Shown: piece after piece, positions 28,814-43,862 of the stretch
Layout: the number at the start of each line of letters is the position of its first letter
Numbering within the stretch: the stretch's first letter is position 1
Assembly: GCF_017873855.1 (NCBI RefSeq)
Contig: NZ_JAGGKR010000001.1
Span: 1,865,529 to 1,929,528, forward strand
Origin: Methanolinea mesophila
Lineage (GTDB): Archaea > Halobacteriota > Methanomicrobia > Methanomicrobiales > Methanospirillaceae
Length of the DNA stretch: 64,000 bases
Direction of reading: 5' to 3'
Position numbers and translations under genes: made by a program
The notes under the pieces: generated by a model
Seen by the model: the letters and a program-made list of their open reading frames with translations, nothing else
Databases searched by the model: none
What the model was told of the DNA's origin: nothing

Positions 28814-29290
28814 TCAGGGGGAATTCCCGGTCTCCCGCAGTTCCCTCAGGTGCCGATATTGCCATTCCCGTTCTCGGTCTGTGGCGGATCCTGCATCGGA
28901 TGGATCCGCGGCATCCCGAACGGCGGTTGCTGCATAGAGCGCGGCACCGAGCGCATGACGGGGAACATGAGCGGTCGCAATTGCATGGCCCGCGGCCCGG
29001 GCGGCGGAACGGGCCGGGTCATACTCGTGTGCTTCACGAGCCGCGGCATGGGCCGCAAGAGCGGTCTTCCGGACGTCGGACATACGGAACACCCCGGTCC
29101 GGACCCACTCCCGTGTCGCTTCGATGGCATCCCGGGGCCGCCGGTCATCCGGAAAGTTCTGCTCAAAATATGGAAGCACACGTTCGGCACAGTCGGCCGC
29201 CCACATTGCCAGCGTGTTCTGGCCGGTCCCGGCCGCGAGTTCCTCTATCTCCTGGTCCAGGCTCGTTTTTGCGATTATCGGCTTCTTCAT
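28814..29290 (-). CDS. Imm5-like putative immunity protein
   Basis: A 158-residue all-helical protein from ATG 29290. It shows 'WAADCAERVLPYFEQNFPDD', 'RPRDAIEATREWVRTGVFRM', Ala-rich helices 'ALAAHAAAREAHEYDPARSA' and 'AGHAIATAHVPRHALGAALY', which match the Imm5-type proteins predicted as antidotes to polymorphic toxins. No toxin gene is adjacent, so the immunity role is uncertain; it may be an orphan or have another function. It is unusually Ala/Arg-rich compared with its neighbours. Confidence 0.65.
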   Translation of the reverse strand: MKKPIIAKTSLDQEIEELAAGTGQNTLAMWAADCAERVLPYFEQNFPDDRRPRDAIEATREWVRTGVFRMSDVRKTALAAHAAAREAHEYDPARSAARAAGHAIATAHVPRHALGAALYAATAVRDAADPSDAGSATDREREWQYRHLRELRETGNSP

Positions 29291-29378
29291 ATCAATTTTA
29301 TTCGGTTCTTCCTTGTCTGCAGGTAATCGGGTACCGGCCCCTGCACCCCGATCCATCATCGGGAGGATGATATGTTCA

Positions 29379-29463
29379 TGCGGGGGAAGGGATTCGAACC
29401 CTTGAACTCCTGCGAGATGGGACCCTAAATCCCACGCCTTTGACCAGGCTCGGCAACCCCCGC
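29379..29463 (-). tRNA. tRNA-Leu(TAG)
   Basis: On the minus strand the gene folds as a class II tRNA. Acceptor GCGGGGG/CCCCCGC, anticodon stem TGGGA/TCCCA with loop TTTAGGG giving anticodon TAG, a variable arm ending in GAGTTC, and T-arm AGGGTTCGAATCCCT. Discriminator A. CCA is not encoded. Confidence 0.95.
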
Positions 29464-30561
29464 GTAAGGTCGATCAATAATGGTTCTCGTATCATTTAAT
29501 AGTATAAGACTCTGAATCCGGCGGTTTTAAACGGTGCCCGATATGTTCGGACACGAGGTATACTCCTCCCGGGTACAAATTTCAACCCCTTGGTCTGACC
29601 CCGGATATTTTCGTTTCACCCGGGCGGAACGTTACCTCGGGAAACTTACCCGAGGTGTATGTTCCTTGACGCAGAATTTTTTTACGCAATATTGCGCATC
29701 GCGTTCTCCATGCCGATCTGTCCTATTCCTGAAGGGAGAAGCCATATGTCAGGATCGACATCCTTTTATCGTAGAATTATTATTCTGCGCAATCCTTATA
29801 TGCAAGGAGATTTAATAGAAATATGCCATATATGATGGCCTGGACGAGAACGAATACGGTCGCACCCTGCAATCTCAGCACCACCGGGGGCGGCCGGGCG
29901 TCGAAACCAGATTGGGACCAAATATGGTAAGTAGAAACGCCAGTGGAAATATCGGACAAAGAAGAGATCCTGACCGTTCGCCACCTTTCGATCAGGGGAT
30001 AATAATGTCCGTCAGTGACGTTTCCCTCCTACGAGCGAAAATACTTGCCAAACTGGAGATCGAAGACGTACGAACCGCGATAGCGGCAATCGGGACCAGG
30101 CAAAAGTAACATATATGGTACTCTTTTCCGTTTTTCGATGAAAAACGAGAAAGAGGAGAAAAGATAGTCTGCAGCACATGAAGGACCCTCACAAACTCCC
30201 CTGGGTTCAAAATCCCAACCAAACTGGTCCTTTTCCCTTTCCTTTCCAAAATCTCTCCTGAAAAGCCCGGGCGGACTTCGGAAACCCCGGCGCCGGAACG
30301 ATACCTGACAGAGTATGCCCCCCCGGAAATGTAATGGCATCCATCCTGAGATAATCATCCCCGGCCCCCGCCGTTCATCGCACGGGGTGTTATTATTACT
30401 CATATGCGCGTAATGATTTGCCGGGCGAGGGAACCGCATTCCGGGGGTATATTTTTCATTTACCGGGCCCATATTGAAGGGCAATTACTGGCACGATTGG
30501 TTCCAATCAGAAAAGATTATGCAGTCACTTCATGTACTTGTCTGTAGTGGAGATCAGGTGA
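29464..30561. other. 1.1-kb region without a supported gene, with hairpins
   Basis: This stretch lies between tRNA-Leu and the eha operon and is more AT-rich than its surroundings. It holds a perfect 8-bp hairpin ACCTCGGG/CCCGAGGT (29634-29656) followed 20 nt later by a T run, and a nested hairpin at 30121-30155 (outer CTCTTT/AAAGAG, inner CGTTTTTC/GAAAAACG, loop GAT). Short frames such as 29912-30109, ending 'LEIEDVRTAIAAIGTRQK', have no recognisable features. The region may encode small RNAs or be a decayed element. The eha promoter must lie near its end (TATATTTTT at about 30451; GATTGG-TT-CCAATC at 30495-30508). Confidence 0.5.
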
Positions 30562-31047
30562 ATGCTTGAGGACCTCGCCCAACTGTGTGTCGCGGCGGTA
30601 GTTTCCTGGATCCTTTTCGTTTCGGTGGATATCATATTCAGGCTCCCGTTGAAGGGAGGTGTGAGCGGAGCCACCGGGATCGCGAAGGCCGTAGAGGGGG
30701 AGGGAGGCTCTCTTTCCGGGGGCACCATGATGGGGAATATCGTCTCGTCCCCCGATGCATCTGCCGGGACGCTCCTCGCGGCGTGCGGTGTCTATATCGC
30801 CGGAATCCCGGGCGGGCTTTTTGCGGCGCTGCTGGTGTACATCGGGAACCGCATCTGTTATGACCCCGGATATGCAGGTACAACCGGTGCGGTGCTCGCC
30901 ACATTCGTTATCTATGCATTTACCCTGGCCGGGTTTTCCGCCGCATACTTCATCGCAGGGATGGTGATCGCCATTCTCACCATCCAGGGGCTCTCCCACG
31001 TGCATGCCAGCCGGCTGCTCGGGACCCTGTGGAGGTGGAGGTCATAA
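30562..31047 (+). CDS. ehaB: Energy-converting hydrogenase A subunit B
   Basis: First gene of the eha-fwd operon: a 161-residue integral membrane protein with about four hydrophobic segments ('LCVAAVVSWILFVSVDIIF', 'LLAACGVYIAGIPGGLFAAL', 'TGAVLATFVIYAFTLAGFSA'). Length and position match EhaB. Its role in the Eha membrane arm is structural or in ion translocation. The ATG has GGTG 1 nt before an A spacer (gatcaggtgaatg). ehaA, which precedes ehaB in Methanothermobacter, is not seen upstream. Confidence 0.8.
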   Translation: MLEDLAQLCVAAVVSWILFVSVDIIFRLPLKGGVSGATGIAKAVEGEGGSLSGGTMMGNIVSSPDASAGTLLAACGVYIAGIPGGLFAALLVYIGNRICYDPGYAGTTGAVLATFVIYAFTLAGFSAAYFIAGMVIAILTIQGLSHVHASRLLGTLWRWRS

Positions 31048-31298
31048 CCCCTCCTGACCTGGCACTTATTGTGTGTTCGGTCATCGCGGTGTATGCGGCG
31101 GTCCGGGTGGTCCTTGAAAAAAACACCCTCCGTAAACTGCCCTACCTGAACGTGATGTCCTTTGCAGTGGCGGGGATAATAGTCCTCATTATCCCCCACC
31201 CGCTCGCGATCCTCGCTGCCGCCGCCTATTTTGTGGGCACGACGCTCGAGTCCAATGCTATCGCAAGCACCTTCGCCGGGGGTGAAGGGGATGAATGA
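31029..31298 (+). CDS. ehaC: Energy-converting hydrogenase A subunit C (DUF2109)
   Basis: An 89-residue membrane protein with three hydrophobic segments ('LALIVCSVIAVYAAVRVVL', 'VMSFAVAGIIVLIIP', 'AILAAAAYFVGTTLE'). It overlaps ehaB by 19 bp with a GTG start; GTG codons at 31029 and 31035 are both possible. The ending 'GTTLESNAIA' is typical of the small Eha subunits. Confidence 0.78.
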   Translation: MEVEVITPPDLALIVCSVIAVYAAVRVVLEKNTLRKLPYLNVMSFAVAGIIVLIIPHPLAILAAAAYFVGTTLESNAIASTFAGGEGDE

Positions 31299-31521
31299 GT
31301 ACCTGCCGTTCGTGCTCGGGGCACTGGTCGTCATCGGTGCCCTGGCAACAATCCGGGAGAAGAGCCCCTATAACAAGCTGATATCGCTCTCCCTGATGAT
31401 CGGAGGGGCGATTCCCTTCATCGCCGACAGAGGACTGCTCGACGTCGCAGTCGCGGTAGCGCTCATCGCTCCCATTTCCACCATCTTCATCCTGATGGCA
31501 ATGAGGAGGGGACCGCAATGA
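31291..31521 (+). CDS. ehaD: Energy-converting hydrogenase A subunit D (DUF2108)
   Basis: A 76-residue membrane protein with two to three segments ('LPFVLGALVVIGALATI', 'AVAVALIAPISTIFILMAM') and the cytoplasmic loop 'REKSPYNKLISLSLMIGGAI'. The start ATG overlaps the ehaC stop (ATGAATGA). Resembles the MnhC/NuoK-like small Eha subunit. Confidence 0.78.
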   Translation: MNEYLPFVLGALVVIGALATIREKSPYNKLISLSLMIGGAIPFIADRGLLDVAVAVALIAPISTIFILMAMRRGPQ

Positions 31522-31757
31522 CCCCCGAATTTGTCCTGGGGCTGTTCCTTATCCTGGTCGGGACAATCGCCGTGGCGTTTCCGAGGGAGAAGACCTACCT
31601 CGCAAGGCTTATCAACCTGGAGATCCCCGGGTGGGGAGTGCTCCTCGTGATGCTCTCCTACAACGAAGCCCTGGCCCTCCTGACATTCGGCGGGGTGACC
31701 ACCCTTACGGTCTACCTCTTCGCCCGGGTTCTGCAGAAGAAGGAGGGGGCACTATGA
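31518..31757 (+). CDS. ehaE: Energy-converting hydrogenase A subunit E (DUF2107)
   Basis: A 79-residue membrane protein with two segments ('FVLGLFLILVGTIAVAFP', 'ALALLTFGGVTTLTVYLFAR') and the linking stretch 'REKTYLARLINLEIPGWGVL'. It starts at the ATG overlapping the ehaD stop by 4 bp, indicating coupled translation. Confidence 0.78.
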   Translation: MTPEFVLGLFLILVGTIAVAFPREKTYLARLINLEIPGWGVLLVMLSYNEALALLTFGGVTTLTVYLFARVLQKKEGAL

Positions 31758-32197
31758 TCGGGAGGATCTCACGTGTGCTCTCGAACTATGAGAACCTCCT
31801 GATGATCTTTGCCCTGGTGAGCATCGCGGTGATTATTCTCGTCCTGATCGGCCTTCCCTATACCTATGCCGAGCCCCAGCTCTACCCCAAGAGTATCAAT
31901 ACCAGCAGCCCGCTCAACCCGTACGACCGGGGCGGCCCGCCGTTCACCCAGGCCCACATCGCGCTCCAGTATCCGGAAAATTCTCCGTACGCAGGGTACG
32001 TGACCGCATATCTCACCCCGTTCTCGCAATGGCTCGCCGACACCACGATGTATCTGGGGACAACAATCGTCTCCCATCCGGGGGGGATCCTGGATGAGAT
32101 CCTCTACAATACCCGGGGGCTTGACACCGTAGTGGAAACCACCATCCTCTTCATTGCGTTCGCCATCGGGTCCTACCTCTTCCGGAGGAGGTCCTGA
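31754..32197 (+). CDS. ehaF: Energy-converting hydrogenase A subunit F
   Basis: A 147-residue membrane protein. One segment is near the N-terminus ('NLLMIFALVSIAVIILVLIG') and one at the C-terminus ('VVETTILFIAFAIGSYLFR'), with an extracytoplasmic loop of about 80 residues between them ('PQLYPKSINTSSPLNPYDRG'). Start ATG 31754 overlaps the ehaE stop by 4 bp. Confidence 0.8.
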   Translation: MIGRISRVLSNYENLLMIFALVSIAVIILVLIGLPYTYAEPQLYPKSINTSSPLNPYDRGGPPFTQAHIALQYPENSPYAGYVTAYLTPFSQWLADTTMYLGTTIVSHPGGILDEILYNTRGLDTVVETTILFIAFAIGSYLFRRRS

Positions 32198-32802
32198 TGT
32201 GGGACCAGTATTCGGTCGGGCTCGCGGTGGTTCTGGTCTCCGCCATAATCGCATTCCTGGCGCTCATAAGAGAGAAAGACGACCTTCACCGCCTCCTCAT
32301 AATCGACCTGGTGGAGATCCCGTCGCTTGCGGTGATCGCACTTCTGGGCACCGACCTTGCCGAGGCGCTCATCCTCCCCGGCCTGGTGGTCGGTATCGCA
32401 GAGCTGCTTGCGCTTTCCCAGATCTATATCACCAAAGAGGGGCTTTCCGATCGCCCGGTGAAGCGGCTGGGTGTGGAGGTCATCACCCGGTCGCATGCAC
32501 CGGCGATACTCGCCCTGTTCCTGGTAGCATACGGCCTGGTCCTATCAGGGTTCACCGGCGGGGGGATCGCAGGGCTCGGGGTGATCTTCTTTGTAATGGC
32601 CAGGGAGAAGGAGGAACGGTTTGCGCTGGTGGAGATGGCGAGCGGGATCACCTGGGCGGTGTGGATCCTCGCGTTCTTCATCTTCATGTTCTTCCCCCTG
32701 TACTGGTACCTGGCCCTGATGCTCGCAGCTATCGCAATCCTGCTCAAGGTCACCGCGAAATTGTCGCTCATGGGGAGCATGTGGGGTGGGCGTAATGAGT
32801 AA
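32197..32802 (+). CDS. ehaG: Energy-converting hydrogenase A subunit G
   Basis: A 201-residue protein with five to six membrane segments ('VGLAVVLVSAIIAFLALI', 'LAVIALLGTDLAEALILP', 'ILALFLVAYGLVLSGFTG'). 'REKDDLHRLLIIDLVEIPSL' is characteristic. The ATG uses the last base of the ehaF stop codon (TGATG). Part of the membrane arm. Confidence 0.8.
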   Translation: MWDQYSVGLAVVLVSAIIAFLALIREKDDLHRLLIIDLVEIPSLAVIALLGTDLAEALILPGLVVGIAELLALSQIYITKEGLSDRPVKRLGVEVITRSHAPAILALFLVAYGLVLSGFTGGGIAGLGVIFFVMAREKEERFALVEMASGITWAVWILAFFIFMFFPLYWYLALMLAAIAILLKVTAKLSLMGSMWGGRNE

Positions 32803-33451
32803 CCTCGGAGGCGTGCCCTATTTCCTTGTCCCGTTCGGGGACATCGTGATTTATTTCACGCCGTTCACCGCGACGCTCTTCATCCTTGCCCTGGTGTTTA
32901 CCGTGCTCGCGATCCTGGCCCGGCCTGAGCGGCAGCTCGATATCGTGTTCGGGGGGGATGCATTCGTCGCAAAGGAGACCCCCGTGCAGGAGCTGAAGTT
33001 CCGGCGGTTCATGGCGATAGCCTGCGGGCTTGCAACCATGGGTGCAATGGTAACCGGGGATATCTTCGATTTCGCCCTGTTCACCTCCCTGGTGGGGATC
33101 ACGAACGTGGGCATCGTCGGGGCGGTGAAGAACCGGCACGTCCAGGAAGCGGCCTTCCAGTATGGTATGGTGGCACTTGCCGCGACCATGCCCCTCTTTG
33201 CAGGGGCCGCGATGGTCGCCGCCACCACGGGGACGCTCTCGATGATCCAGCTCGCTTCCATGCCCGTCTCGCAGGTGCCGCTGGCGGTGAAAGCCCTGAT
33301 AACCCTCGGGGTGATGGGAGAAGGGATGGCCCCGTTCTATGCCGCGAAAGCCGAGATGTTCCGGGCACCGGGCGCCCCCTACGTGATCATGTGTTCGCTC
33401 TCTTCCCTGCTGATATTCCTGCGGGTGATAGAGATAGTCCTGACGGTGTGA
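32795..33451 (+). CDS. ehaH: Energy-converting hydrogenase A subunit H
   Basis: A 218-residue polytopic protein of the antiporter-like class (NuoL/M/N-related, shortened). Start ATG 32795 follows GGGGTGGG and overlaps ehaG by 8 bp. Segments include 'FTATLFILALVFTVLAILA', 'AIACGLATMGAMVTGDIFDF' and 'ALITLGVMGEGMAPFYAAKA'. It is a likely ion channel for the H+ or Na+ gradient that drives ferredoxin reduction. Confidence 0.82.
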   Translation: MSNLGGVPYFLVPFGDIVIYFTPFTATLFILALVFTVLAILARPERQLDIVFGGDAFVAKETPVQELKFRRFMAIACGLATMGAMVTGDIFDFALFTSLVGITNVGIVGAVKNRHVQEAAFQYGMVALAATMPLFAGAAMVAATTGTLSMIQLASMPVSQVPLAVKALITLGVMGEGMAPFYAAKAEMFRAPGAPYVIMCSLSSLLIFLRVIEIVLTV

Positions 33452-33456
33452 TAGGC

Positions 33457-33660
33457 ATGAAAAAAACGACTGCAGCTGCGATGGTCTGGATATCAGCGGG
33501 GACAGCATTCGCCGCATGGATCCTCTCGTTCCTGGAGATAATACCTCTGTGGGTATACGAAGCGGTCCTGGTGGCAGCCGTCCCCCTGTTCGTCCTTTCA
33601 CTCGGGCTGTGGTGGATGGCACGGGAGAACGAGCCTGATATTCCGTTCATAGGGTACTAG
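33457..33660 (+). CDS. ehaI: Energy-converting hydrogenase A subunit I
   Basis: A 67-residue membrane protein with two segments ('TTAAAMVWISAGTAFAAWIL' and 'VYEAVLVAAVPLFVLSLGL'). The C-terminal tail is 'ARENEPDIPFIGY'. It begins 5 bp after the ehaH stop. The assignment rests on size and position. Confidence 0.7.
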   Translation: MKKTTAAAMVWISAGTAFAAWILSFLEIIPLWVYEAVLVAAVPLFVLSLGLWWMARENEPDIPFIGY

Positions 33661-33661
33661 C

Positions 33662-34504
33662 ATGATTCCGTATCTCGTGTTTGCCATATTCTTCGGCCTG
33701 CTCCTGCTCGGCCTACACCGTAAGGTTATCGCCCGGATCCAGCAGCGCCCCGGCCCCCCGGTATGGCAGGAGATCCTCCACATGCTCAAGTTCTCTTTCA
33801 AGAGCACATGGATTCCCCGGACCGCGAGCGATACCCTGTTCGTTGCGGTGGTGCTGATCGCGATAGGGATATGGACGGCGGCGTTCTTCGTGGTGCTCGC
33901 CGGCGGGAGCCTCCTCATTCTCTTCGGGATCTATATGCTCCACAAGATCGTGGAGCACGGGTTCGGGCTCTCCTCGGGATCGCCGTACGGGAAGTTCGGA
34001 GGGGTACGCTCGGTCATCTCTGCGGCCTCGGAGATTCCCCTCTTTGTCTCGGTTGCCGGGATCGCACTCTTCACAAAGTCTCTCGACATAGCTGATATCA
34101 TCGATTACCAGGCGGTGCACGGGCCCCTCCTCTGGGTGGTCCCGCTCTCCGCGGTGGCCATGTACCTGGTCATCCTCTCCAAAATGCCGTTCGGGCCGTT
34201 CTCGATCGTGGAAAGCAAGGAACTGGTCTCGGGATACAAGACGGAACACTTCGGGGTATGGCGGGCAGGACTTGAGGTATGCAACGGGTTGAAGACCTAC
34301 GTGCTCCTGATGGCGTTCGTGATAATCTTTATCGGCGGCCTTCCGATCTGGTGGCTGCTCCTCGCAATGGTGGTGCTGATTATAACCTACTCGTTTGTCT
34401 GTGCCCTGACTCCCATGCTCGCCCCGTTTGACAGCGTGTCCATCCAGACCCTGATCACCGTGGTGATGCTCGGGTATGTAGCCTGGCTGGGGTGGTTCGC
34501 ATGA
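33662..34504 (+). CDS. ehaJ: Energy-converting hydrogenase A subunit J (NuoH-like)
   Basis: A 280-residue polytopic protein of the NuoH/EchB/MbhM class, which joins the hydrogenase module to the membrane arm. The early 'HRKVIARIQQRPGPPVWQEI' is the signature loop. The later 'SAASEIPLFVSVAGIALF' and 'KMPFGPFSIVESKELVSGYK' contain the conserved acidic residues of this family. Immediately follows ehaI. Confidence 0.88.
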   Translation: MIPYLVFAIFFGLLLLGLHRKVIARIQQRPGPPVWQEILHMLKFSFKSTWIPRTASDTLFVAVVLIAIGIWTAAFFVVLAGGSLLILFGIYMLHKIVEHGFGLSSGSPYGKFGGVRSVISAASEIPLFVSVAGIALFTKSLDIADIIDYQAVHGPLLWVVPLSAVAMYLVILSKMPFGPFSIVESKELVSGYKTEHFGVWRAGLEVCNGLKTYVLLMAFVIIFIGGLPIWWLLLAMVVLIITYSFVCALTPMLAPFDSVSIQTLITVVMLGYVAWLGWFA

Positions 34505-34743
34505 TCCGGGAGATAATCCTTGCCGGCGGGGCGTTTTACCTGCTGATCAACATCGTCCAACTGGTGCAGAACCAGTCGGTGGGAGGGGAAGGCCTGGCGG
34601 TCGGGGTGATCTACCTGATCGGCGTAGGGGCATTCTGGTCAAGAGAGGAAGAACCCCTGAAAAAATGGGAATACCTGGTGATATGGGTGGCCGTCCTGCT
34701 GTTCGTGGTATATGGGGCGCTTCATTACGGGGGGATGGTATGA
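34501..34743 (+). CDS. ehaL: Small Eha membrane subunit (EhaL/EhaK-like)
   Basis: An 80-residue protein with two to three hydrophobic segments ('GAFYLLINIVQLVQNQS', 'GLAVGVIYLIGVGAFWS', 'YLVIWVAVLLFVVYGAL'). The ATG overlaps the ehaJ stop. In the Methanothermobacter order, two small genes (K and L) occupy this place; only one is here. The letter is assigned by position and is tentative. Confidence 0.62.
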   Translation: MIREIILAGGAFYLLINIVQLVQNQSVGGEGLAVGVIYLIGVGAFWSREEEPLKKWEYLVIWVAVLLFVVYGALHYGGMV

Positions 34744-35129
34744 CCGCGTATCTCTATGAAAAAGACCTCGTGGGGATGAAATATTCCATCCTCATCAGCT
34801 GCAGGCACGACGCGATGGTACGGGCGATAGCCCTTGATCTTGGCGTGGGGGTCCAGCAGTTGCGGAAGCACCTGATCGAACATTTCGACATGATACTCCT
34901 GGAGAACCTGCCCGCCCGGTACGAGGCCGGGAAGAAGGATCCGGATGACGACGACGAGGAGGCAAAAATGCTGGGAAGAGCGCTCTATACAAAGTACATC
35001 CCCCTGTTTTCCGGGAACGAGATCAATCGCGCCCTCGACAGGATCGATACCTGGATATCGGAGGGAATACCGGCGGACGAGGCGGTAATGAAGGGAAAGA
35101 AATTCCTCGGCACGGTGATCACAGGATGA
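34740..35129 (+). CDS. ehaM: Energy-converting hydrogenase A subunit M (DUF1959)
   Basis: A 129-residue soluble protein. It has 'KYSILISCRHDAMVRAIALD', an acidic run 'KKDPDDDDEEAK', and 'NEINRALDRIDTWISEGIPA'. No membrane segment is present, so it is cytoplasmic and attached to the hydrogenase module. Matches the DUF1959/EhaM family in size and place. Coupled to both neighbours by 4-bp overlaps. Confidence 0.82.
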   Translation: MTAYLYEKDLVGMKYSILISCRHDAMVRAIALDLGVGVQQLRKHLIEHFDMILLENLPARYEAGKKDPDDDDEEAKMLGRALYTKYIPLFSGNEINRALDRIDTWISEGIPADEAVMKGKKFLGTVITG

Positions 35130-35578
35130 GCCTCCTGCAGTCGATAAAGAACTATGTCCGGTCCCGGTCGATCCACGTGAGCTACGTCGATGTCGGATCC
35201 TGCAACGGGTGCGATATCGAGGTGCTCGCCTGTCTCTCACCCCGCTACGATATCGAGCAGTACGGGATATACGTCCACAACAACCCCCGGGAAGCGGACA
35301 TTCTGCTGGTTATCGGCGCATACACCCCCGGATGGGAGGAGAAGCTCGCGACGCTCTGGGAGAAGATTCCCGAGCCCAAGGCCGCGATCGCAATAGGGAA
35401 CTGCCCGATATCGGGCTGCCTGTTCAACCGTCCCCACACGTATATCGACCCTCCCGTGGCAAAGCACATTCCCATCGCCGCAGAGGTGCCGGGGTGTCCG
35501 CCCCGCCCGACCGAGATCCTGGCCGCGGTGCTTGCGGTCGCACCCATCGTGTTCCGTGATTTCGAGGTGAAGCGATGA
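35126..35578 (+). CDS. ehaN: Eha [NiFe]-hydrogenase small subunit
   Basis: A 150-residue Fe-S subunit of the NuoB class. Four ligands of the proximal [4Fe-4S] cluster are visible: 'GSCNGCDIEVLA' (C26, C29), 'GNCPISGCLF' and 'PGCPPRP'. It lacks the additional clusters of uptake hydrogenase small subunits, as expected for energy-converting enzymes. It passes electrons between the NiFe centre in EhaO and the polyferredoxin. 4-bp overlaps on both sides. Confidence 0.92.
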   Translation: MSLLQSIKNYVRSRSIHVSYVDVGSCNGCDIEVLACLSPRYDIEQYGIYVHNNPREADILLVIGAYTPGWEEKLATLWEKIPEPKAAIAIGNCPISGCLFNRPHTYIDPPVAKHIPIAAEVPGCPPRPTEILAAVLAVAPIVFRDFEVKR

Positions 35579-36663
35579 AAAAGACCGTGGACGTATCCAT
35601 CCCCATGGGGCCCATCCACCCCTGCTTCAAGGAACCCGCCCGGATCAAGTGCCAGACCTCCGGGGAGCGGGTGCTGTCCGCCGAGATGGAACTGGGTTAC
35701 ATGAAGAAAGGGATCGAGCGGATCATGAAAGGCCGGCCCTGGCAGGAAGTGATGTTCCTTGCAGAACGGGTCTGCGGTATCTGTTCCGTGATCCACAACA
35801 TGGTCTTCATCGAGGCGCTGGAGAAGATCAGCGCGATAGAAGTTCCTGAACGAGCGGCCTTGCTCCGGGTGATCGTAAACGAACTCGACCGGATACAGAG
35901 CCATACCCTGGCGAACTTTTCCTACTGCTATACCATCGAACACGAAACCCTGGCGATGTACCTCCTGGATGTCCGGGAGAAGGTCATGGACATGCTGGAA
36001 CTGATCACCGGGGCCCGGGTGACCTGTGCCTACATAGTCCCGGGAGGGGTTAGGTTCGATCTCAGGCCTGAAGATGCCCGGCGCCTCTCCGCAACTATCG
36101 ACCGTATCGAGGCGGATGTCACCCGGTTCATGAAGATGTTCGAGGGTGGCCCTATGATCGCGACAAGGAGCAGGGGAGTGGGCATCCTGACCAGAGAAGT
36201 GGCGATCGAGGCGCATGTGGTAGGGCCGACCGCCCGTGGGAGCAATATGCCGGAGATAGACCTGAGGCTTCGCCATCCCACCTACCGGGCGCTGGAGTTC
36301 TCCCCCGAATACCGGGAAGAAGGGGACAATTATGCCCGGATCATGGTGAGGTTCCAGGAGGTGTTCCAGAGTATCCGGCTCATCCGCAGGTGCCTTGAGC
36401 GGCTCGACCCCGGCCCTGTCCGGGGAGGAGGGATACCCGGGGCCGGGGAGATTGCCTACGCAGGGGAGGCGCCCAGGGGAGAGCTCTCCTACTTCTTAAA
36501 GACCGATGCCGCGGGAAGAGTGCTGGACATCTCCATCCAGACGCCTTCCATCATGAACATCGAGGCCTGCTGCCACTACCTTATCGTGGACGTGACGTCG
36601 CTCGCCGACGTCACCTCGACCTTTGTCAGCGTGGACCCCTGCATCGCCTGCACGGAGCGTTGA
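35575..36663 (+). CDS. ehaO: Eha [NiFe]-hydrogenase large subunit
   Basis: A 362-residue catalytic subunit of the NuoD class. Both Ni-binding cysteine pairs are intact: 'ERVCGICSVIHN' (C67, C70) and 'DPCIACTER' (C356, C359) at the extreme C-terminus. Because the chain ends 3 residues after the last ligand, there is no cleavable C-terminal extension, so no maturation protease may be needed. It oxidises H2 and, driven by the ion gradient, reduces low-potential ferredoxin. HypB encoded at 60672-61319 would help load its nickel. Confidence 0.94.
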   Translation: MKKTVDVSIPMGPIHPCFKEPARIKCQTSGERVLSAEMELGYMKKGIERIMKGRPWQEVMFLAERVCGICSVIHNMVFIEALEKISAIEVPERAALLRVIVNELDRIQSHTLANFSYCYTIEHETLAMYLLDVREKVMDMLELITGARVTCAYIVPGGVRFDLRPEDARRLSATIDRIEADVTRFMKMFEGGPMIATRSRGVGILTREVAIEAHVVGPTARGSNMPEIDLRLRHPTYRALEFSPEYREEGDNYARIMVRFQEVFQSIRLIRRCLERLDPGPVRGGGIPGAGEIAYAGEAPRGELSYFLKTDAAGRVLDISIQTPSIMNIEACCHYLIVDVTSLADVTSTFVSVDPCIACTER

Positions 36664-36664
36664 C

Positions 36665-37273
36665 ATGCCGTTCTCACTGGTCTACTACCTCTCGCATTTC
36701 GCCCGCATAGAATGGGTAAAGAATTTTTTTGCAGCAAAGACCGCTCCGCTGGAGACTCCTCCGTATTTCCGCGGGTTTCCGGAACTCACCGGGGAGCTCT
36801 GCCAGCACTCGCTCTTCTGCATGATGGCGTGCCCCGCACCCGGCGCCATCGACGTGGTCCATTCGGGGAAGAAGTGGGAGCCCCGCATCCACAAGGGGCA
36901 CTGCATCCGTTGCGGGCTGTGCGTGGAGGCCTGCCCTCACGGCGTGCTGAGGAGCGGCAGGATACTGGACACGATCCACCGGGAACATACCACCCTTTCG
37001 TTCTCCTTCCGGATAGACATCGACCCTGACAAGTGCATGGGGTGCGGGAACTGTGCAGTGGCCTGCCCGGTGAACAAGGTGATCGACGCCCAGATGTCCC
37101 ATGGGGGAAAGGCTTCCACCGATCAGCTCCTGCTCCGTGTAAACGCGGGGAAGAGCGAGGTCCTGCACATGGAGAAATGCACCGGCTGCAAGACCTGCGA
37201 GAACCACTGCCCGAACGAAGCGATCAGGGTATCGCGCCTGCTCGAAGCGGTCCAGAACCCGGAGGCCCCATGA
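36665..37273 (+). CDS. Eha/Fwd polyferredoxin
   Basis: A 202-residue iron-sulfur protein. Three typical [4Fe-4S] motifs are visible: 'CIRCGLCVEACP', 'CMGCGNCAVACP' and 'CTGCKTCENHCP'. An N-terminal variant motif 'CQHSLFCMMACPAPGAI' could hold a fourth. It sits between the hydrogenase large subunit and fwdD, exactly where an electron wire from Eha to formylmethanofuran dehydrogenase would be expected. It resembles EhaP/EhaQ and may also replace the FwdF/FwdG ferredoxins, which are absent. Its stop overlaps the fwdD start by 4 bp. Confidence 0.88.
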   Translation: MPFSLVYYLSHFARIEWVKNFFAAKTAPLETPPYFRGFPELTGELCQHSLFCMMACPAPGAIDVVHSGKKWEPRIHKGHCIRCGLCVEACPHGVLRSGRILDTIHREHTTLSFSFRIDIDPDKCMGCGNCAVACPVNKVIDAQMSHGGKASTDQLLLRVNAGKSEVLHMEKCTGCKTCENHCPNEAIRVSRLLEAVQNPEAP

Positions 37274-37659
37274 AATTCCTCTTAAACACGGGCCGGACGA
37301 TTCGCCAGGGCTCGTTCGTTGAGCGGAAGAACAGCCCGGCCTACAGGAACGAAGCGTCTTCCTGCAGGATGAACCCGGTGGACATGATGGAACTTGGTAT
37401 CGAGGAAGGCGCCAACGTCATGGTGACCGGACCGGCGGGAACTGTCGTCATGAGGGGGGTGCCTGAACCGGGACTCCGGAAGGGCGAGGTCTTCGTCTGC
37501 CTCGGGCCCTTCGCAAACCACATCATAAGTACCGAGACGCATGGGACCGGGATGCCCGATTTTAAGACCACGGTGGTCGAGATAGTCCCCACCGACGAAA
37601 GGATCGCCGAGATATGGGAGCTGATGGAGTCCTGCGGAGGGTGGCGCTATGAAGGTTGA
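37270..37659 (+). CDS. fwdD: Formylmethanofuran dehydrogenase subunit D
   Basis: A 129-residue protein with the molybdopterin-dinucleotide-binding beta-barrel fold of the C-terminal domain of formate dehydrogenases. Motifs include 'FLLNTGRTIRQGSFVERKN', 'CRMNPVDMMELGIEEGANVM' and 'GPFANHIISTETHGTGMPDF'. It completes the active site of FwdB. It overlaps the polyferredoxin gene (4 bp) and fwdB (11 bp). Confidence 0.92.
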   Translation: MKFLLNTGRTIRQGSFVERKNSPAYRNEASSCRMNPVDMMELGIEEGANVMVTGPAGTVVMRGVPEPGLRKGEVFVCLGPFANHIISTETHGTGMPDFKTTVVEIVPTDERIAEIWELMESCGGWRYEG

Positions 37660-38938
37660 GGACGTGATCTGTCCGTTCTGCGGGTGCCTCTGCGACGACC
37701 TGGTGGTGGAGGTGGAGGGAGAACGTGTGATTGGCGTCGAGAACGGCTGCACCCTCGCCCAGGAGAAGTTCATGGGAGACCACCGGCTCGGACACCCTAT
37801 CCGGAGGACAGGAAAGGAATGGACGCCCGTTTCGTACGACGAGGCGATCGAGACTGCGGCGCGGGTGCTCCTTGAAGCCGACCGCCCTCTTCTCTACGGC
37901 TGGAGCGGGACGCAGGGAGAGGCGCAAAGCGTCGGGGTTCACCTGGCGGAACTCCTGGGGGCGGTGATCGACAATACCTCGACCGTTTGCCACGGCCCAT
38001 CCATCATGGCCATCCAGGAGGTGGGCCACCCGGGCTGCACCCTGGGACAGGTGAAGAACCGGGCGGATCTCCTCATCTACTGGGGGTGCAATCCTATCGA
38101 CGCCCACCCCCGTCATATGAGCCGGTATACCACCTACGCAGATGGTTTCTTCCTCAAGGACGCCTTCCGTGACCGCAAGGTGATCGTGGTCGACATCCGG
38201 GAGACGGAGTCCTCGAATATCGCGGATGAATTCATACGGATTGACCCGGGCGGAGATTACGAGGTACTCTCCGCACTCAGGGCAATCGTGAGGGGCAAGG
38301 GGGCGCTCGTCCCTGCATCGGTCTCGGGAGTTTCACGGGAACAACTCTTCAGGGTCGCGGACCTGTGTAAAGCGGCAAGGTTCGGCGCGATATTCTTCGG
38401 GCTCGGCCTGACAATGTCCCCGGGCAAACAGAAGAACATCAGGAACGCGATCGAGCTTACCGAGGAACTGAACCGGCACACGAAGTTCACCATCTCCCCC
38501 ATGCGGGGTCACTGGAACGTCTATGGTTCGAACGAAGTATTCACCTGGATATCCGGCTACCCCTACGCGGTCGATTTCGCCCGGGGAATCGCCTTTTACA
38601 ACCCCGGCGAGACCACTGCGGTGGATATCCTGAAGCGGGGGGAGTGCGACGCCTGCCTGGTCGTCGCGAGTGATCCCGGCGCACATTTTCCCCGTGATTG
38701 TTGCGCTCATCTCGCCTCTATCCCGACCATCCAGATCGATCCCCACGTAAACGCGACCACTCACTTAAGCCACCTCCAGATCCCGGTTGCGGTCACCGGA
38801 ATAGATGCGGAGGGGACTGCATATCGGATGGACGGGGTACCCATCCGGACGAGATCGCTTTTCCCGAGCAGGTACCCCACCGATACCGAAATCCTGGAGC
38901 GTATCTACGCCATCGTGGCGCGGGAGAAAGGACCATGA
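37649..38938 (+). CDS. fwdB: Formylmethanofuran dehydrogenase subunit B (operon copy)
   Basis: A 429-residue W/Mo-pterin subunit that reduces CO2 to formate. N-terminal cluster cysteines are in 'ICPFCGCLCDDLVVEV'; the metal-ligand Cys is in 'NTSTVCHGPSIMAI' (about residue 114), a cysteine form. 'WGCNPIDAHPRHMSRYT' and 'ASDPGAHFPRDCC' are typical. It differs from the lone copy at 23132-24451 throughout, for example CHGP here against CHGS there, so the two are old paralogues and not a recent duplicate. Whether it uses tungsten or molybdenum cannot be told from sequence. Confidence 0.95.
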   Translation: MKVEDVICPFCGCLCDDLVVEVEGERVIGVENGCTLAQEKFMGDHRLGHPIRRTGKEWTPVSYDEAIETAARVLLEADRPLLYGWSGTQGEAQSVGVHLAELLGAVIDNTSTVCHGPSIMAIQEVGHPGCTLGQVKNRADLLIYWGCNPIDAHPRHMSRYTTYADGFFLKDAFRDRKVIVVDIRETESSNIADEFIRIDPGGDYEVLSALRAIVRGKGALVPASVSGVSREQLFRVADLCKAARFGAIFFGLGLTMSPGKQKNIRNAIELTEELNRHTKFTISPMRGHWNVYGSNEVFTWISGYPYAVDFARGIAFYNPGETTAVDILKRGECDACLVVASDPGAHFPRDCCAHLASIPTIQIDPHVNATTHLSHLQIPVAVTGIDAEGTAYRMDGVPIRTRSLFPSRYPTDTEILERIYAIVAREKGP

Positions 38939-40635
38939 CCGAACTTCTCATCAGGAACGCCTACGTCATAGACCCGATAAACGATATCCGGGGAGAGATC
39001 ATGGATATCCCCATCCGGGAAGGAAAGATCGTGGAAGAGGTCTCGGACCGGGCCCCGGTGATTGACGCGGAGGGGTATCTCACCCTTCCCGGGGGCATCG
39101 ACTCCCATTCGCATGTTTGCGGGACGAAGGTGAACTTCGGCCGGTACATGAGCCCGGAGGATATGAGGGCAGGAAGGACCGCACGGAAAGGCCGGATGCA
39201 CGTGACTTCCGGGTACAGCGTGCCCACGACGTTCGGAAATTCCTACCGGTACAGTGCGATGGGATATACCATGGTCCTCGAGGGAGCCATGGCCCCGCTG
39301 GAAGCCCGGCACACCCACGAGGAGTTCACCGCCACTCCCCACCAGGACATGATGGCCAACACCCTCTTTGACGGGAACTGGTCGATTATGGAAGCGGTCC
39401 TCGACAAGGACGTGAAACGGGCGGCTGCGGTGGTTGCCTGGATCCTGAATGCGGTCAAGGGGTTTGCGATCAAGCTTACCAACCCCGGCGGGACCGAGGC
39501 CTGGGGGTGGGGAGAGGACCTCGCGGGGATCCACGACGAAGTCCCCCACTTCGGGGTCACCCCCGCGGAGATCATCGGGACGATGATCCGGGCGAATGAA
39601 CTGTTACACCTTCCCCACTCGGTACACCTCCACTGCAACAATCTCGGGGTGCCGGGGAATCACCGGACGACCCTGGAAACCATCGCGCTTGCCCCGGACC
39701 TCAACCCGAAGCGGCAGAGCCTGTACCTGACCCATGTGCAGTTCCATTCCTATGGGGGGACCACATGGAGGGACATCGACTCGCGGAGCGAGGAGGTCAC
39801 GAAGGCGGTGAACGCCAAACCGCAGGTGGTCATGGACATGGGGCAGATCATGTTCGGCAGGACCACCACCATGACCGCGGACGGGCCCATGGAGTTCAAG
39901 CTCTACATGCTCCACCACAACAAGTGGAGCAACCACGATGTGGAGCTGGAGACCGGGTCAGGGATCATCCCTGTGTACTACACCAGGAAGAGCCTGGTGA
40001 ACTGCATCATGTGGGCCATAGGGCTCGAACTGGCCCTCCTCACGAAAAATCCGTGGCAGTGCATTCTCGCCACGGATAATCCGAACGGGGCGCCGTTCGT
40101 TAAATATCCCGAAATCATCGCCCTGCTGATGAGTAAAAAATTCCGCGAGCAGGAAGGTGCCCTGCTCGATCCGAGGACCGAGCATCATGTCCCCCTCTTC
40201 GCGATAGACCGGGAACTCGACTGGTACGAGATCGCGGTAATGACCCGGGCGGCACAGGCGAAAGCCCTGGGAATCCAGGACCTGGGCAGAGGGCATCTCG
40301 CTCCCGGCGCACTCGCTGATGTGGCGATATATCCCATGAAGACAGACCAGCTCGATCCGGCCACCCAGTTTCAGCAGGTGATCGCAGGGTTTGCGAGGAC
40401 CCGCTACACCATCAAGCGGGGCAGGGTCGTTGCGCGGGACGGCGAGGTGGTGGTGGACGGGGCGAACAGTACTATCTGGGTAAGGCCGAAAGTCCCTCCC
40501 GAATACGACCTTTCCCGCGATCCAGAGTTTGTGAAAAAATTCGAGCAGTACTATACGGTCCGGATGCGAAACTACCCCGTGCAGGATACATATCTCCCCC
40601 GTGGGATCTGCATCGAGACCGAGGCGGACTTATGA
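38935..40635 (+). CDS. fwdA: Formylmethanofuran dehydrogenase subunit A
   Basis: A 566-residue amidohydrolase-fold subunit that condenses formate, delivered through an internal tunnel, with methanofuran. The dinuclear metal site is visible: 'GGIDSHSHVCGTKV' (about residues 53-66), the likely carboxylated lysine in 'FAIKLTNPGGTEAWGWG' (about 176-192), later histidines in 'LPHSVHLHCNNLGVPGNH', and the Asp in 'CILATDNPNGAPF'. Full length for the family. Start ATG overlaps the fwdB stop by 4 bp. Confidence 0.96.
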   Translation: MTELLIRNAYVIDPINDIRGEIMDIPIREGKIVEEVSDRAPVIDAEGYLTLPGGIDSHSHVCGTKVNFGRYMSPEDMRAGRTARKGRMHVTSGYSVPTTFGNSYRYSAMGYTMVLEGAMAPLEARHTHEEFTATPHQDMMANTLFDGNWSIMEAVLDKDVKRAAAVVAWILNAVKGFAIKLTNPGGTEAWGWGEDLAGIHDEVPHFGVTPAEIIGTMIRANELLHLPHSVHLHCNNLGVPGNHRTTLETIALAPDLNPKRQSLYLTHVQFHSYGGTTWRDIDSRSEEVTKAVNAKPQVVMDMGQIMFGRTTTMTADGPMEFKLYMLHHNKWSNHDVELETGSGIIPVYYTRKSLVNCIMWAIGLELALLTKNPWQCILATDNPNGAPFVKYPEIIALLMSKKFREQEGALLDPRTEHHVPLFAIDRELDWYEIAVMTRAAQAKALGIQDLGRGHLAPGALADVAIYPMKTDQLDPATQFQQVIAGFARTRYTIKRGRVVARDGEVVVDGANSTIWVRPKVPPEYDLSRDPEFVKKFEQYYTVRMRNYPVQDTYLPRGICIETEADL

Positions 40636-41402
40636 GGGTCACGCTTGAAACAAAACCGAGGAAAAAGCCGAAAATCCCTATCGAAGCCGAGAATATAATC
40701 CCCCAGAACTTCCTTCGCGGGATGGACATTACGGTCTACGAAGGGAACAAGGAGCGCCGACTGGAAGATCTCTTCTATATTGCAGTGGAAGGTCCTGCTG
40801 TCTCTCCAGACCAGGTCGAGGTCATCCTCAAAGGTGATACCGGGGTGATCAAAAGGGTGGGAGAATACATGAATGCAGGAAGAATCGTGGTGGAAGGCGA
40901 TATCGGAATGCATTGCGGGAATTTCATGAGCGCAGGAGAGATCCTGATCCGGGGGAATGCGGAATCGTGGCTCGGGCGCGAGATGAGGGGTGGAACGATC
41001 CGGTGCCTGGGCAATACCGGACATTATTGCGCTGCCGGGTACCGGGGAGAGAAACGAGGCATGCGCGGTGGAAAGGTTGAGGTAATGGGAAATGCCGGGG
41101 ACTATGCCGCCGAGTATCTCTCCGGGGGAGAAGTAATCATCCGGGGCTCCACGGGAGATATGCCCGGGATCGAGATGCGGGGGGGCACCCTGGTTATCGG
41201 GGGAACCTGCACCCGTCCCGGAGCCAACATGACCGGGGGGACCTGCATTGTCCTGGGAAATGCAGCCCGAATCATTCCCACGTTCGCCGCTGCAGGTATC
41301 CGGGAACTGACGTGGGAAGACAGGAGCTACGCGGTGCAGGTCTATAACGGCGACATGGCGAACCGCGGTGGGAAAGGGACCCTTTTGGTGAGACGTGAGT
41401 GA
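40632..41402 (+). CDS. fwdC: Formylmethanofuran dehydrogenase subunit C
   Basis: A 256-residue beta-helix subunit related to the glutamate synthase C-terminal domain. Regular G-x2-G-x3-G repeats run from about residue 75 to 220 ('GEYMNAGRIVVEGDIGMHCG', 'GREMRGGTIRCLGNTGHYCA', 'GIEMRGGTLVIGGTCTRPGA'). It holds FwdA and FwdB together. It is the last gene of the eha-fwd operon. FwdE, F, G and H are not in the window. Confidence 0.95.
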   Translation: MRVTLETKPRKKPKIPIEAENIIPQNFLRGMDITVYEGNKERRLEDLFYIAVEGPAVSPDQVEVILKGDTGVIKRVGEYMNAGRIVVEGDIGMHCGNFMSAGEILIRGNAESWLGREMRGGTIRCLGNTGHYCAAGYRGEKRGMRGGKVEVMGNAGDYAAEYLSGGEVIIRGSTGDMPGIEMRGGTLVIGGTCTRPGANMTGGTCIVLGNAARIIPTFAAAGIRELTWEDRSYAVQVYNGDMANRGGKGTLLVRRE

Positions 41403-41669
41403 AGCCAAAAAATTTCGCATTTCCCGGGTAATGAGGCCCCGGGACCGGTTAGAAGAGGGAATTATTCCGTTGATCGTCCGTTCATCTTACTTTTATCGTG
41501 AATTTGAGATAAAAATTCGGATCGACCCTGAATAAATTATTTCAGGCTGGAGGATGCACCTCATACTATTGAACCGGCCCGGAGACGCAGTTTCCGCACC
41601 ATACGCCCGGGGTACAATGACTTTTAACGGGCTTGATCCTGTAAATCGGAAAAAATTAGCGAGTAACGT
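41403..41669. other. Intergenic region after eha-fwd operon
   Basis: 267 bp with no credible gene. A CCTGAA...TTCAGG inverted repeat (41527-41546) with an AT-rich centre lies about 125 bp after fwdC. It could be part of the operon terminator or of the promoter for the downstream sensor gene. Confidence 0.4.
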
Positions 41670-43862
41670 ATGATCTCGGTACTACTGGTTGATGATGAGC
41701 CTGCGATCCTTGACGTTGCCCAGATCTTTCTGGAGCGGGGCGGCGGCATAAGGGTCAGCCTTTCCGAATCAGGCACGAAAGCACTGGAAATGTGTGCCCT
41801 TCACCCCTACGATATCATCGTCTCTGACTATGAGATGCCAGGGATGAACGGGATCGACCTGCTCAAGGAAGTGAAGTCCCGGAATCCCGATACCCCGTTC
41901 ATTATCTTCACCGGGAGAGGGAGGGAACACGTGGCAATCGAAGCCCTGAACCTCGGCGCTTCGTTCTATCTCCAGAAAGGGGGCGACCCGAAATCCCAGT
42001 TCGCCGAGCTCCGGAACATGATAGACCAGGCGGTCCGGCATAACAAGGCCGAAGAGGAGGTCCGATTGAACGAATCCCGCCTCGCCGCGATTATCGACCT
42101 CCACCAGATGCACGGTGCAGCCATGAAGGAGATCTGCGACTACGCACTTGAGAAGGCCATCGAGCTCACCAGGAGCAGTATCGGGTACCTTGCCTTCGTG
42201 GAGGAGGCGACCTCGATGCTCACAATGTATGCCTGGTCGCGACAGGCGCTTACCGAGTGCCTGATTGGGGAGAAACCCCTGCTCTATCCGCTTGAGTCAA
42301 CCGGATTGTGGGGAGAAGCGGTGAGGCAGCGCCGGCCGGTGATCACCAACGACTATGCGGCGGAAAACCCGGCAAATAAGGGATACCCGGAAGGACACGT
42401 CCACATCTCCCGGCATATGAACGTGCCAATCTTCGAGGGCAACCGGATCATGATGCTTGCCGGGGTGGGTAACAAGGAGACCGAGTATGACGAGTCCGAT
42501 ATACGCCAGGTGACGCTCCTTATGGGAGGATTGTGGCAGATCCTGAAACGGAAACGGGCCGAAGAAGAACTCAGGGAGAGCGAGAAGAGGCTCCGGTCGT
42601 ATTTCGACCTTCCCATGGTAGGTATGGCGATCATCTCTCCCGGGATGCGCTGGGTGCAGGTGAACGATACGCTCTGTGGGATGCTCGGGTATCCGGCAGA
42701 TGAGATGGTGGGCAGGACGTGGGCGGAATTCACCCCGGAAGAAGACGAGGAGAAGGAATTAAACAGTTATTCTGACGTTATCCAGGGATCGAGGTCTGCG
42801 GCAGTGTTTGAAAAGAGATACCGGAGAAAGGACGGTTCCCTGATCTCGGTCCGAATCTCGAGCATGCCCGTCCGGAACGAAAACGGCTCTATAGATTATT
42901 TTGTTGCCTTCTTCCAGGATATCACTCCCCTCGAAAGAACACGGCAGGAACTTACGATCTCGAACGAACGGGTGACCGCCGTTCTGGGGGAACTTAATGC
43001 CGCCCGTTCTGCCCTCGCAGAACAATGCGAGAGGCTCCTCCGCGAGGAATCCCTCCTGCACGAGAGTGAGGCAAAATACAACTCCCTGGTGGAAAAGATC
43101 GGTTCCGGCAATTTCGATGAGAATATTCCGGCGGATCCGATCGTTTCGGTTGAGGCGACATCCCCCTCAGCAGGACCGGGTCAGGGAACTGCTCCGGATG
43201 ACCCTTCACGGGACCCGGCCTGCATCGCAGACCGGAAATTCACCCTGCTGGACACGATTACCCGGCACGATACGAATAACAAACTCGCCGTCGTTTCAGG
43301 GTACATCGAACTCATGAAGGAATCTTCCGATGACCCCGCGATCCATTCCTACCTCCGCAGGCAGGAACGGGCGGTGGAAGCAATCCAGCATATCCTGACC
43401 TTTACCAAAGCCTACCGTGACCTTGGAATGAAGGAGCCGTCCTGGCAGGATGTGGCAGGGGCCGTCCGGAACTCGGCAGGGCTCCTGGAATTACAATCGG
43501 TTACCATCTACATGGATCTTGCCGGACTGTTCGTTCGTGCGGATCCGCTCTTCGAGAAGGTATTTTATAATCTTATCGAGAATGCACTTCAATACGGAAA
43601 AAAAATCACCAAAATAGAGATATCGGCAATTGCAACCGACGAAGGACTTATAATAATAATCGAGGATGACGGGACCGGTATTCCCAATGACCAGAAAGAG
43701 AGAATTTTCGAGCCTGGTGTGGGTGAAAATACAGGATACGGACTTTTCCTGGTCCGTGAGATCCTCTCGATGACAGAGTTTTCGATCCGGGAAAACGGGC
43801 ATCCGGGTGAAGGCGCCCGGTTCGAGATCGTCATCCCCCACGGGTCGTACCGGTTTGAATAG
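41670..43862 (+). CDS. Hybrid response regulator / GAF / PAS / histidine kinase
   Basis: A 730-residue cytoplasmic signalling protein. Domains in order: REC (residues 1-120, 'SVLLVDDEPAILDVAQIF', phospho-Asp in 'DIIVSDYEMPGMNG'); GAF (about 140-300, 'AFVEEATSMLTMYAWSRQ', 'HISRHMNVPIFEGNRIM'); PAS (about 310-425, ending 'FFQDITPLE'); a coiled coil and Pro/Ser-rich linker; DHp 'TRHDTNNKLAVVSGYIELM' with the phospho-His; and HATPase with 'FYNLIENALQYG' and 'EDDGTGIPNDQKERIFEP'. Its order, receiver first, is common in Methanomicrobiales. The signal is unknown. Confidence 0.92.
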   Translation: MISVLLVDDEPAILDVAQIFLERGGGIRVSLSESGTKALEMCALHPYDIIVSDYEMPGMNGIDLLKEVKSRNPDTPFIIFTGRGREHVAIEALNLGASFYLQKGGDPKSQFAELRNMIDQAVRHNKAEEEVRLNESRLAAIIDLHQMHGAAMKEICDYALEKAIELTRSSIGYLAFVEEATSMLTMYAWSRQALTECLIGEKPLLYPLESTGLWGEAVRQRRPVITNDYAAENPANKGYPEGHVHISRHMNVPIFEGNRIMMLAGVGNKETEYDESDIRQVTLLMGGLWQILKRKRAEEELRESEKRLRSYFDLPMVGMAIISPGMRWVQVNDTLCGMLGYPADEMVGRTWAEFTPEEDEEKELNSYSDVIQGSRSAAVFEKRYRRKDGSLISVRISSMPVRNENGSIDYFVAFFQDITPLERTRQELTISNERVTAVLGELNAARSALAEQCERLLREESLLHESEAKYNSLVEKIGSGNFDENIPADPIVSVEATSPSAGPGQGTAPDDPSRDPACIADRKFTLLDTITRHDTNNKLAVVSGYIELMKESSDDPAIHSYLRRQERAVEAIQHILTFTKAYRDLGMKEPSWQDVAGAVRNSAGLLELQSVTIYMDLAGLFVRADPLFEKVFYNLIENALQYGKKITKIEISAIATDEGLIIIIEDDGTGIPNDQKERIFEPGVGENTGYGLFLVREILSMTEFSIRENGHPGEGARFEIVIPHGSYRFE

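Follow-up and report, generated by a model that had tools for sequence, protein, structure and literature searches.

Eha, a group 4 energy-converting [NiFe] hydrogenase, uses an ion gradient to drive the H2-dependent reduction of low-potential acceptors. In Methanococcus, Eha is essential for priming or topping up the methanogenic cycle, and it is thought to act there through ferredoxin. In formylmethanofuran dehydrogenase (Fwd or Fmd), FwdG connects FwdB with a redox partner, which can be FwdF with heterodisulfide reductase (Hdr). This study concerns the eha–fwd locus of Methanolinea mesophila, located at 30562-41402 of a 64,000-nucleotide (nt) stretch of DNA (the window, G000:C1:1865529-1929528). 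The host genome has 2.66 Mb in two contigs; among named organisms, it is closest to Methanolinea and other Methanoregulaceae.

Anderson et al. 2009 (PMC2686161) found eha adjoining formylmethanofuran dehydrogenase genes in Methanocorpusculum labreanum, Methanoculleus marisnigri and Methanospirillum hungatei, and proposed that Eha supplies Fmd through ferredoxin. Gilmore et al. 2017 (PMC5563889) give the same adjacency for Methanocorpusculum parvum and propose separate ferredoxin pools. The species of both papers share with the present locus the eha gene order, the adjacent fwd/fmd genes and a proposed coupling to formylmethanofuran synthesis; the published view invokes a ferredoxin intermediate. 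A 2024 Methanospirillum paper reads the adjacency as anaplerotic (PMC11346949), and in a 2024 metatranscriptome, a Methanoculleus had Fwd loci adjoining Eha and Ech, and the two hydrogenases were expressed (PMC11201294). The adjacency itself, published in 2009, was thus discarded as a novelty. The first-pass annotation had held that eha and fwd are usually seen as separate units. This is correct for Class I methanogens only, such as Methanothermobacter, where the eha operon encodes a 6[4Fe-4S] EhaP and a 10[4Fe-4S] EhaQ and stands apart from fwdHFGDACB (PMC3087415); for Methanomicrobiales, the adjacency and the idea of coupling have been in print since 2009. Subunits B to O of Methanothermobacter Eha are homologous to those described here.

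At 30562-41402, 18 co-directional reading frames, all on the + strand, run from ehaB to fwdC. The 17 junctions span −19 to +5 nt, varying with start choice; no gap exceeds 5 nt, and up to ten junctions are ATGA-type 4-nt overlaps. The reading frames bore out what the first-pass annotation had described, namely 18 co-directional genes with gaps of at most 5 nt, frequent 4-nt overlaps and a ferredoxin gene placed exactly between ehaO and fwdD. Judged from the sequence, the gene order of Eha and Fwd is operon-like. The ferredoxin gene (36665-37273, + strand) encodes a 202-amino-acid (aa) subunit with 15 conserved Cys in four motifs, not the six or ten [4Fe-4S] motifs of Methanothermobacter-type EhaP or EhaQ. 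By its sequence, this product is a fusion of a NuoI/HycF/MbhN-type half and a FwdG-type half. The best explanation, which we hold to be fairly probable, is that Eha and a dedicated Fwd isoenzyme are hard-wired via this fused NuoI–FwdG subunit for formylmethanofuran synthesis driven by H2 and the ion gradient. One coupled operon with a direct path of electrons from Eha to Fwd, as the first-pass annotation had suggested, is well supported, and the more so given the hydrogenase/FwdG fusion between them.

Sequence searches were run separately on residues 1-110 and residues 111-202 of the fused subunit. The N-domain (residues ~1-110, 36665-36994, + strand) matched HycF (7z0s_F), MBS (6u8y_N), MBH (6cfw_N), NuoI and also polyferredoxin repeats. 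It has an N-terminal helical stretch and two [4Fe-4S] motifs, and its best single-pair matches are NuoI, HycF and MbhN, as expected of a NuoI/EchF/HycF-type domain. The C-domain (residues ~112-194, 36998-37246, + strand) carries two CxxCxxCxxxC motifs with a long linker, and in sequence and fold it is of the FwdG type, though within a longer protein. Residues 111-202 matched 9sfi_U (80 aa, 59.5 bits), FwdG 5t5i_G (50.9) and FmdG 7bkb_L (44.4), each in a single stretch covering nearly the full length of the dicluster domain. FwdF chains reached an equal or higher total score against the C-domain, but only by summing several repeats. The C-domain profile scored 51.1 bits against FmdG of its own genome and at most 22.6 bits against any other domain of the loci tested, orthologs and the two-domain homolog of one outgroup genome (G244) excepted. 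In the reciprocal search, the best non-self match of the Hdr-linked FmdG in the genome was the C-domain of the fused subunit (43.5 bits), with a 439-aa protein close behind (37.9 bits). No FwdG model is listed among the NCBIfam matches of the C-domain, where FwdF and generic ferredoxins rank on top, so NCBIfam alone does not identify it as FwdG. In an AlphaFold2 model built from 55 orthologs, the C-domain was confident, with a predicted local distance difference test score (pLDDT) of about 80-92. When the whole PDB was searched with Foldseek, the 15 best matches to the C-domain were all Fwd/Fmd chains, led by FwdG 5t5i_G with a target template-modelling (TM) score of 0.86, and the FwdG/FmdG chains among these 15 aligned across the whole target.

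Two further observations concern the fused subunit. The first Cys motif (window 36800-36835) reads CxxSxxCxxxCP in this lineage and the canonical CxxCxxCxxxCP in Methanoculleus, and it may hold an unusual first cluster. In one Methanolinea metagenome-assembled genome (G101:C43:104649-105171), an interruption of the frame falls between residues 83 and 100, where the two domains meet, and reflects either an assembly error or a real split.

We propose that the 18 genes encode a membrane-bound Eha and a formylmethanofuran dehydrogenase isoenzyme dedicated to it, with the fused iron-sulfur subunit linking the two. H2 would be split at EhaO, and the Eha membrane subunits would draw on the Na+ or H+ gradient to bring down the potential of the electrons. 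These would then pass from the EhaN cluster to the NuoI-like N-domain of the 36665-37273 protein, from there to the FwdG-like C-domain, and on to FwdB. FwdB would reduce CO2 to formate, and FwdA would condense formate with methanofuran. No fwdG or fwdF was found beside the Eha-linked fwdDBAC, and the fused FwdG domain is predicted to stand in for both separate subunits; the Eha–Fwd pair would therefore need neither free ferredoxin nor heterodisulfide reductase. That a membrane-bound Eha–Fwd holoenzyme of Methanomicrobiales acts in this way, as a gradient-driven, H2-dependent CO2 reductase, is in our judgment slightly favored.

The gene-order comparison that the first-pass annotation had called for was made in 120 genomes of the order Methanomicrobiales, 100 of which have EhaO orthologs at ≥58% identity. 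In every one of these 100, the gene immediately after ehaO is the fused ferredoxin gene; in 71 of them, FwdB follows 0-1000 nt past the ferredoxin gene, with room for fwdD only. In the named loci, 1-9 nt separate ehaO from the ferredoxin gene, with six exceptions. The fwdD start precedes the ferredoxin stop by 4 nt, with five exceptions among about 60 loci. The recurrence of the gene order in the majority of named Methanomicrobiales loci shows that it is not due to chance. Departure of the fwd genes does not take the ferredoxin gene along: in 100 of 100 genomes, those with a relocated fwd included, it is still found with ehaO. A Fwd-side origin of the whole ferredoxin gene was consequently rejected. 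In G007, G001 and G025, fwdDBAC stands tail-to-tail with the mvhD–fmdDBAC end of the Hdr cluster, and no separate fwdG lies beside the relocated fwdDBAC in the two of these that were inspected (G007 and G025). A Methanocorpusculum-like genome (G070) has the order eha–ferredoxin–fwdA–fwdC, with a divergent fwdD–fwdB fusion.

The faithful association of the ferredoxin gene with ehaO also fits the published view, in which Eha and Fwd are co-regulated neighbours linked by free ferredoxin and the 36665-37273 protein is the terminal Fe-S subunit of Eha that reduces soluble ferredoxin. The ferredoxin intermediate is assumed in both the 2009 and the 2017 paper (PMC2686161, PMC5563889). However, the C-domain is of the FwdG type and not a generic ferredoxin, and the Eha-linked Fwd has no other FwdG or FwdF beside it; we regard this account as the most serious competitor of hard-wiring, yet as unlikely. 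Several points weigh against hard-wiring. FwdB is not directly downstream in 29 of the 100 genomes (moved, split or at a contig end), and co-transcription is therefore not required. The N-domain of the AlphaFold2 model is poor (pLDDT about 50). Because dicluster ferredoxins resemble each other, it is ranking and fold, and not residues of the interface, that underlie the FwdG assignment. Soluble ferredoxin could still be served by the fused subunit, or the Eha-linked Fwd could borrow FmdG and FmdF from the Hdr cluster.

In M. mesophila itself, we infer that eha and fwd are co-transcribed. A run of seven T (36724-36730) lies within the ferredoxin gene; it was rejected as an internal transcription stop for want of conservation: of 66 relatives, 48 have a longest run of just 2 or 3 T. 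A search of 29001-42500 for an internal promoter gave no 7-of-8 match to TTTATATA, which is weak evidence either way.

Loss of the system was counted by genome, not on a tree, in 98 genomes at least 90% complete. EhaO was present in 86, the same 86 carried the fused ferredoxin gene, and the other 12 lacked both. All 86 Eha genomes have an Eha-type FwdB or a FwdD–B fusion relative at E ≤1e-163. The 12 Eha-less genomes have only a Hdr-type FwdB of about 50% identity, with a best E value of 1e-145 or weaker. They span three families, which points to probably at least three separate loss events. Among relatives of the same family, Eha has been lost jointly with its fused subunit and the Eha-type Fwd in G017, G059, G064, G069, G085, G093, G097, G109, G113 and G117. 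Outside the order but within the phylum Halobacteriota, Eha was found in three genomes (G142, G191 and G244). In G191 and G142, Fwd sits in the Hdr cluster, and the ferredoxin subunit of G191 is a 103-aa N-domain alone. G244 has a two-domain ferredoxin subunit and a single fwdDBAC about 21 kb away, with no fwdG or fwdF beside it. This fits the idea that the FwdG half accompanies Eha–Fwd coupling, with one outgroup lineage each way and a tiny sample.

The same comparison bears on the possibility that the adjacency is a relic of ancestral gene order in Methanomicrobiales, with no special physical coupling and an incidental fused domain. The order is vertically conserved within one order of archaea, and co-regulation can keep operons together. 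Nevertheless, the fusion itself, the disappearance of the matching Fwd clade along with Eha and the fused subunit in the 12 genomes, and the single-domain form found where Fwd is Hdr-coupled all argue against a relic, which we consider quite improbable.

The first-pass annotation had further suggested that Eha–Fwd may bypass free ferredoxin or the Hdr complex. Eha–Fwd does not replace the Hdr route, as the same genome keeps a second cluster, fmdG–fmdF–hdrCBA–mvhD–fmdDBAC–mcr. The FwdF polyferredoxin and hdr genes expected of a Hdr-linked Fwd/Fmd supercomplex are absent from 30562-41402, and both are in this separate cluster; the only other FwdG-like gene found in the genome is located there too, beside fmdF. 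The hydrogenases found in the genome are only FrhA and three group-4 hydrogenases, and MvhA/VhuA was not found in it. Because of this complete Hdr-linked Fmd cluster and this set of hydrogenases, the most likely task of Eha–Fwd is to prime CO2 reduction or to top it up, paid for by the ion gradient, and not to carry the bulk flux. In this role it would let CO2 enter methanogenesis by a priming or anaplerotic step, in parallel with the bifurcating Hdr–MvhD–Fmd set. Eha and Fwd are both chemically reversible, and the pair might instead run mainly in reverse, oxidizing formylmethanofuran to H2 with ion pumping. The complete Hdr-linked Fmd–Mcr cluster and FrhA are, however, typical of CO2-reducing methanogenesis, and we give the reverse direction very little credence.

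A lone second copy of fmdB from the Hdr cluster (G000:C1:1100967-1102286, + strand) was located in the window at 23132-24451 (− strand). The two copies are 99.0% identical over 1318 nt, with 13 differences and an identical protein. Identity ends at the gene boundaries and the flanks are unrelated; the window copy adjoins an ArsR/V4R-type regulator. It represents a recent gene-length duplication or gene conversion.

The remaining genes of the locus, all on the + strand, are as follows. The membrane subunit gene ehaB (30562-31047) is kept at the same position in relatives, and no ehaA was recognised upstream of it. It is followed by ehaC (DUF2109, 31035-31298, PF09882 5e-32, with a GTG start and an earlier GTG possible at 31029), the MbhD-like ehaD (DUF2108, 31291-31521, PF09881 3.9e-20), ehaE (DUF2107, 31518-31757, PF09880 8e-24), ehaF (DUF2106, 31754-32197, PF09879 1.3e-58 when scanned from 31751, with an ATG start at 31754), ehaG (DUF2105, 32197-32802, PF09878 1.7e-66) and ehaH, a NuoN-related antiporter-like subunit (32795-33451, PF10125 9.6e-89). 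Eha-specific membrane subunits DUF2105-2109 and PF10125 thus occur in their usual order, as befits Eha. The small membrane subunits encoded by ehaI (33448-33660, ATG alternative at 33457) and by the gene at the ehaK/L position (34501-34743) were assigned from their position and from orthologs, of which 54 and 60 named loci, respectively, have one; neither these two nor ehaB has a specific Pfam match. Between them lies the NuoH-like ehaJ (33662-34504, PF00146 2.2e-33). The divergent DUF1959 protein EhaM (34740-35129) has a weak PF09218 match itself, and the domain was detected in 14 of 16 orthologs (best 1.3e-7); EhaM is reported as absent from Methanomicrobiales in the 2009 paper (PMC2686161) but is detectable here. 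The hydrogenase subunits are the NuoB-like small subunit EhaN (35126-35578, PF01058 1.4e-26) and the [NiFe] large subunit EhaO (35575-36663, PF00374 1.5e-14, PF00346 3.8e-48). EhaO keeps both Ni-binding Cys pairs (RVCGIC and DPCIAC), as an Eha large subunit should, and its best PDB match is MBH alpha 6cfw_L. Downstream of the ferredoxin gene, FwdD (37270-37659, NF042908 9.2e-29, PF01568 1.9e-13) scored 100 bits against the narrow NF042908 model, whose cut-off of 175 was not reached, and Pfam Molydop_binding was above its own cut-off. The catalytic subunit FwdB of the Eha-type clade (37649-38938, TIGR03129 2.8e-180), the amidohydrolase module FwdA (38935-40635, TIGR03121 9.2e-233) and FwdC (40632-41402, TIGR03122 6.3e-73) all scored above cut-off as formylmethanofuran dehydrogenase subunits.

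There is a precedent for the exchange of the Fwd electron module. In Ca. Ethanoperedens, an F420 reductase replaces FwdF in Fwd (PMC11493965), and its FwdB (8rja_B) is the closest solved relative of the present FwdB. This F420-reducing Fwd (8RJA) and the predicted Eha–Fwd both swap the FwdF polyferredoxin for another redox module. The FwdI F420 reductase stands beside a separate FwdG, whereas the present FwdG domain shares one polypeptide with a NuoI-type hydrogenase domain. In Fdh–Hdr–Fmd of M. hungatei (7BKB) and Mvh–Hdr–Fwd (9SW6), Fwd obtains electrons within the complex and not from free ferredoxin; a like arrangement is predicted here. Those complexes are wired via FmdF/MvhB to HdrA with flavin bifurcation, while no FmdF or Hdr is encoded in the present operon. 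Adjacency and proposed coupling were already known, and as far as the literature searched shows, the fused NuoI–FwdG subunit and its universal place after ehaO are undescribed. The available passages of that literature likewise contained no description of the joint loss or of the absent fwdF/fwdG, and no experimental Eha–Fwd complex was found in it. The electron-module section of a 2024 Fwd review does not list an energy-converting hydrogenase (PMC11656701).

If hard-wiring is true, Eha would be a third kind of electron module for the Fwd family, after polyferredoxin/Hdr and F420 reductase. The two domains of the fused subunit, a single protein, are open to separate tests, which makes direct wiring testable, and the joint loss in Methanoregula-like genomes shows which methanogens manage without Eha–Fwd. 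A hard-wired Eha–Fwd would then give, in one large order, a direct molecular answer to how methanogens prime and replenish the cycle once CO2 reduction is no longer in step with heterodisulfide reduction.

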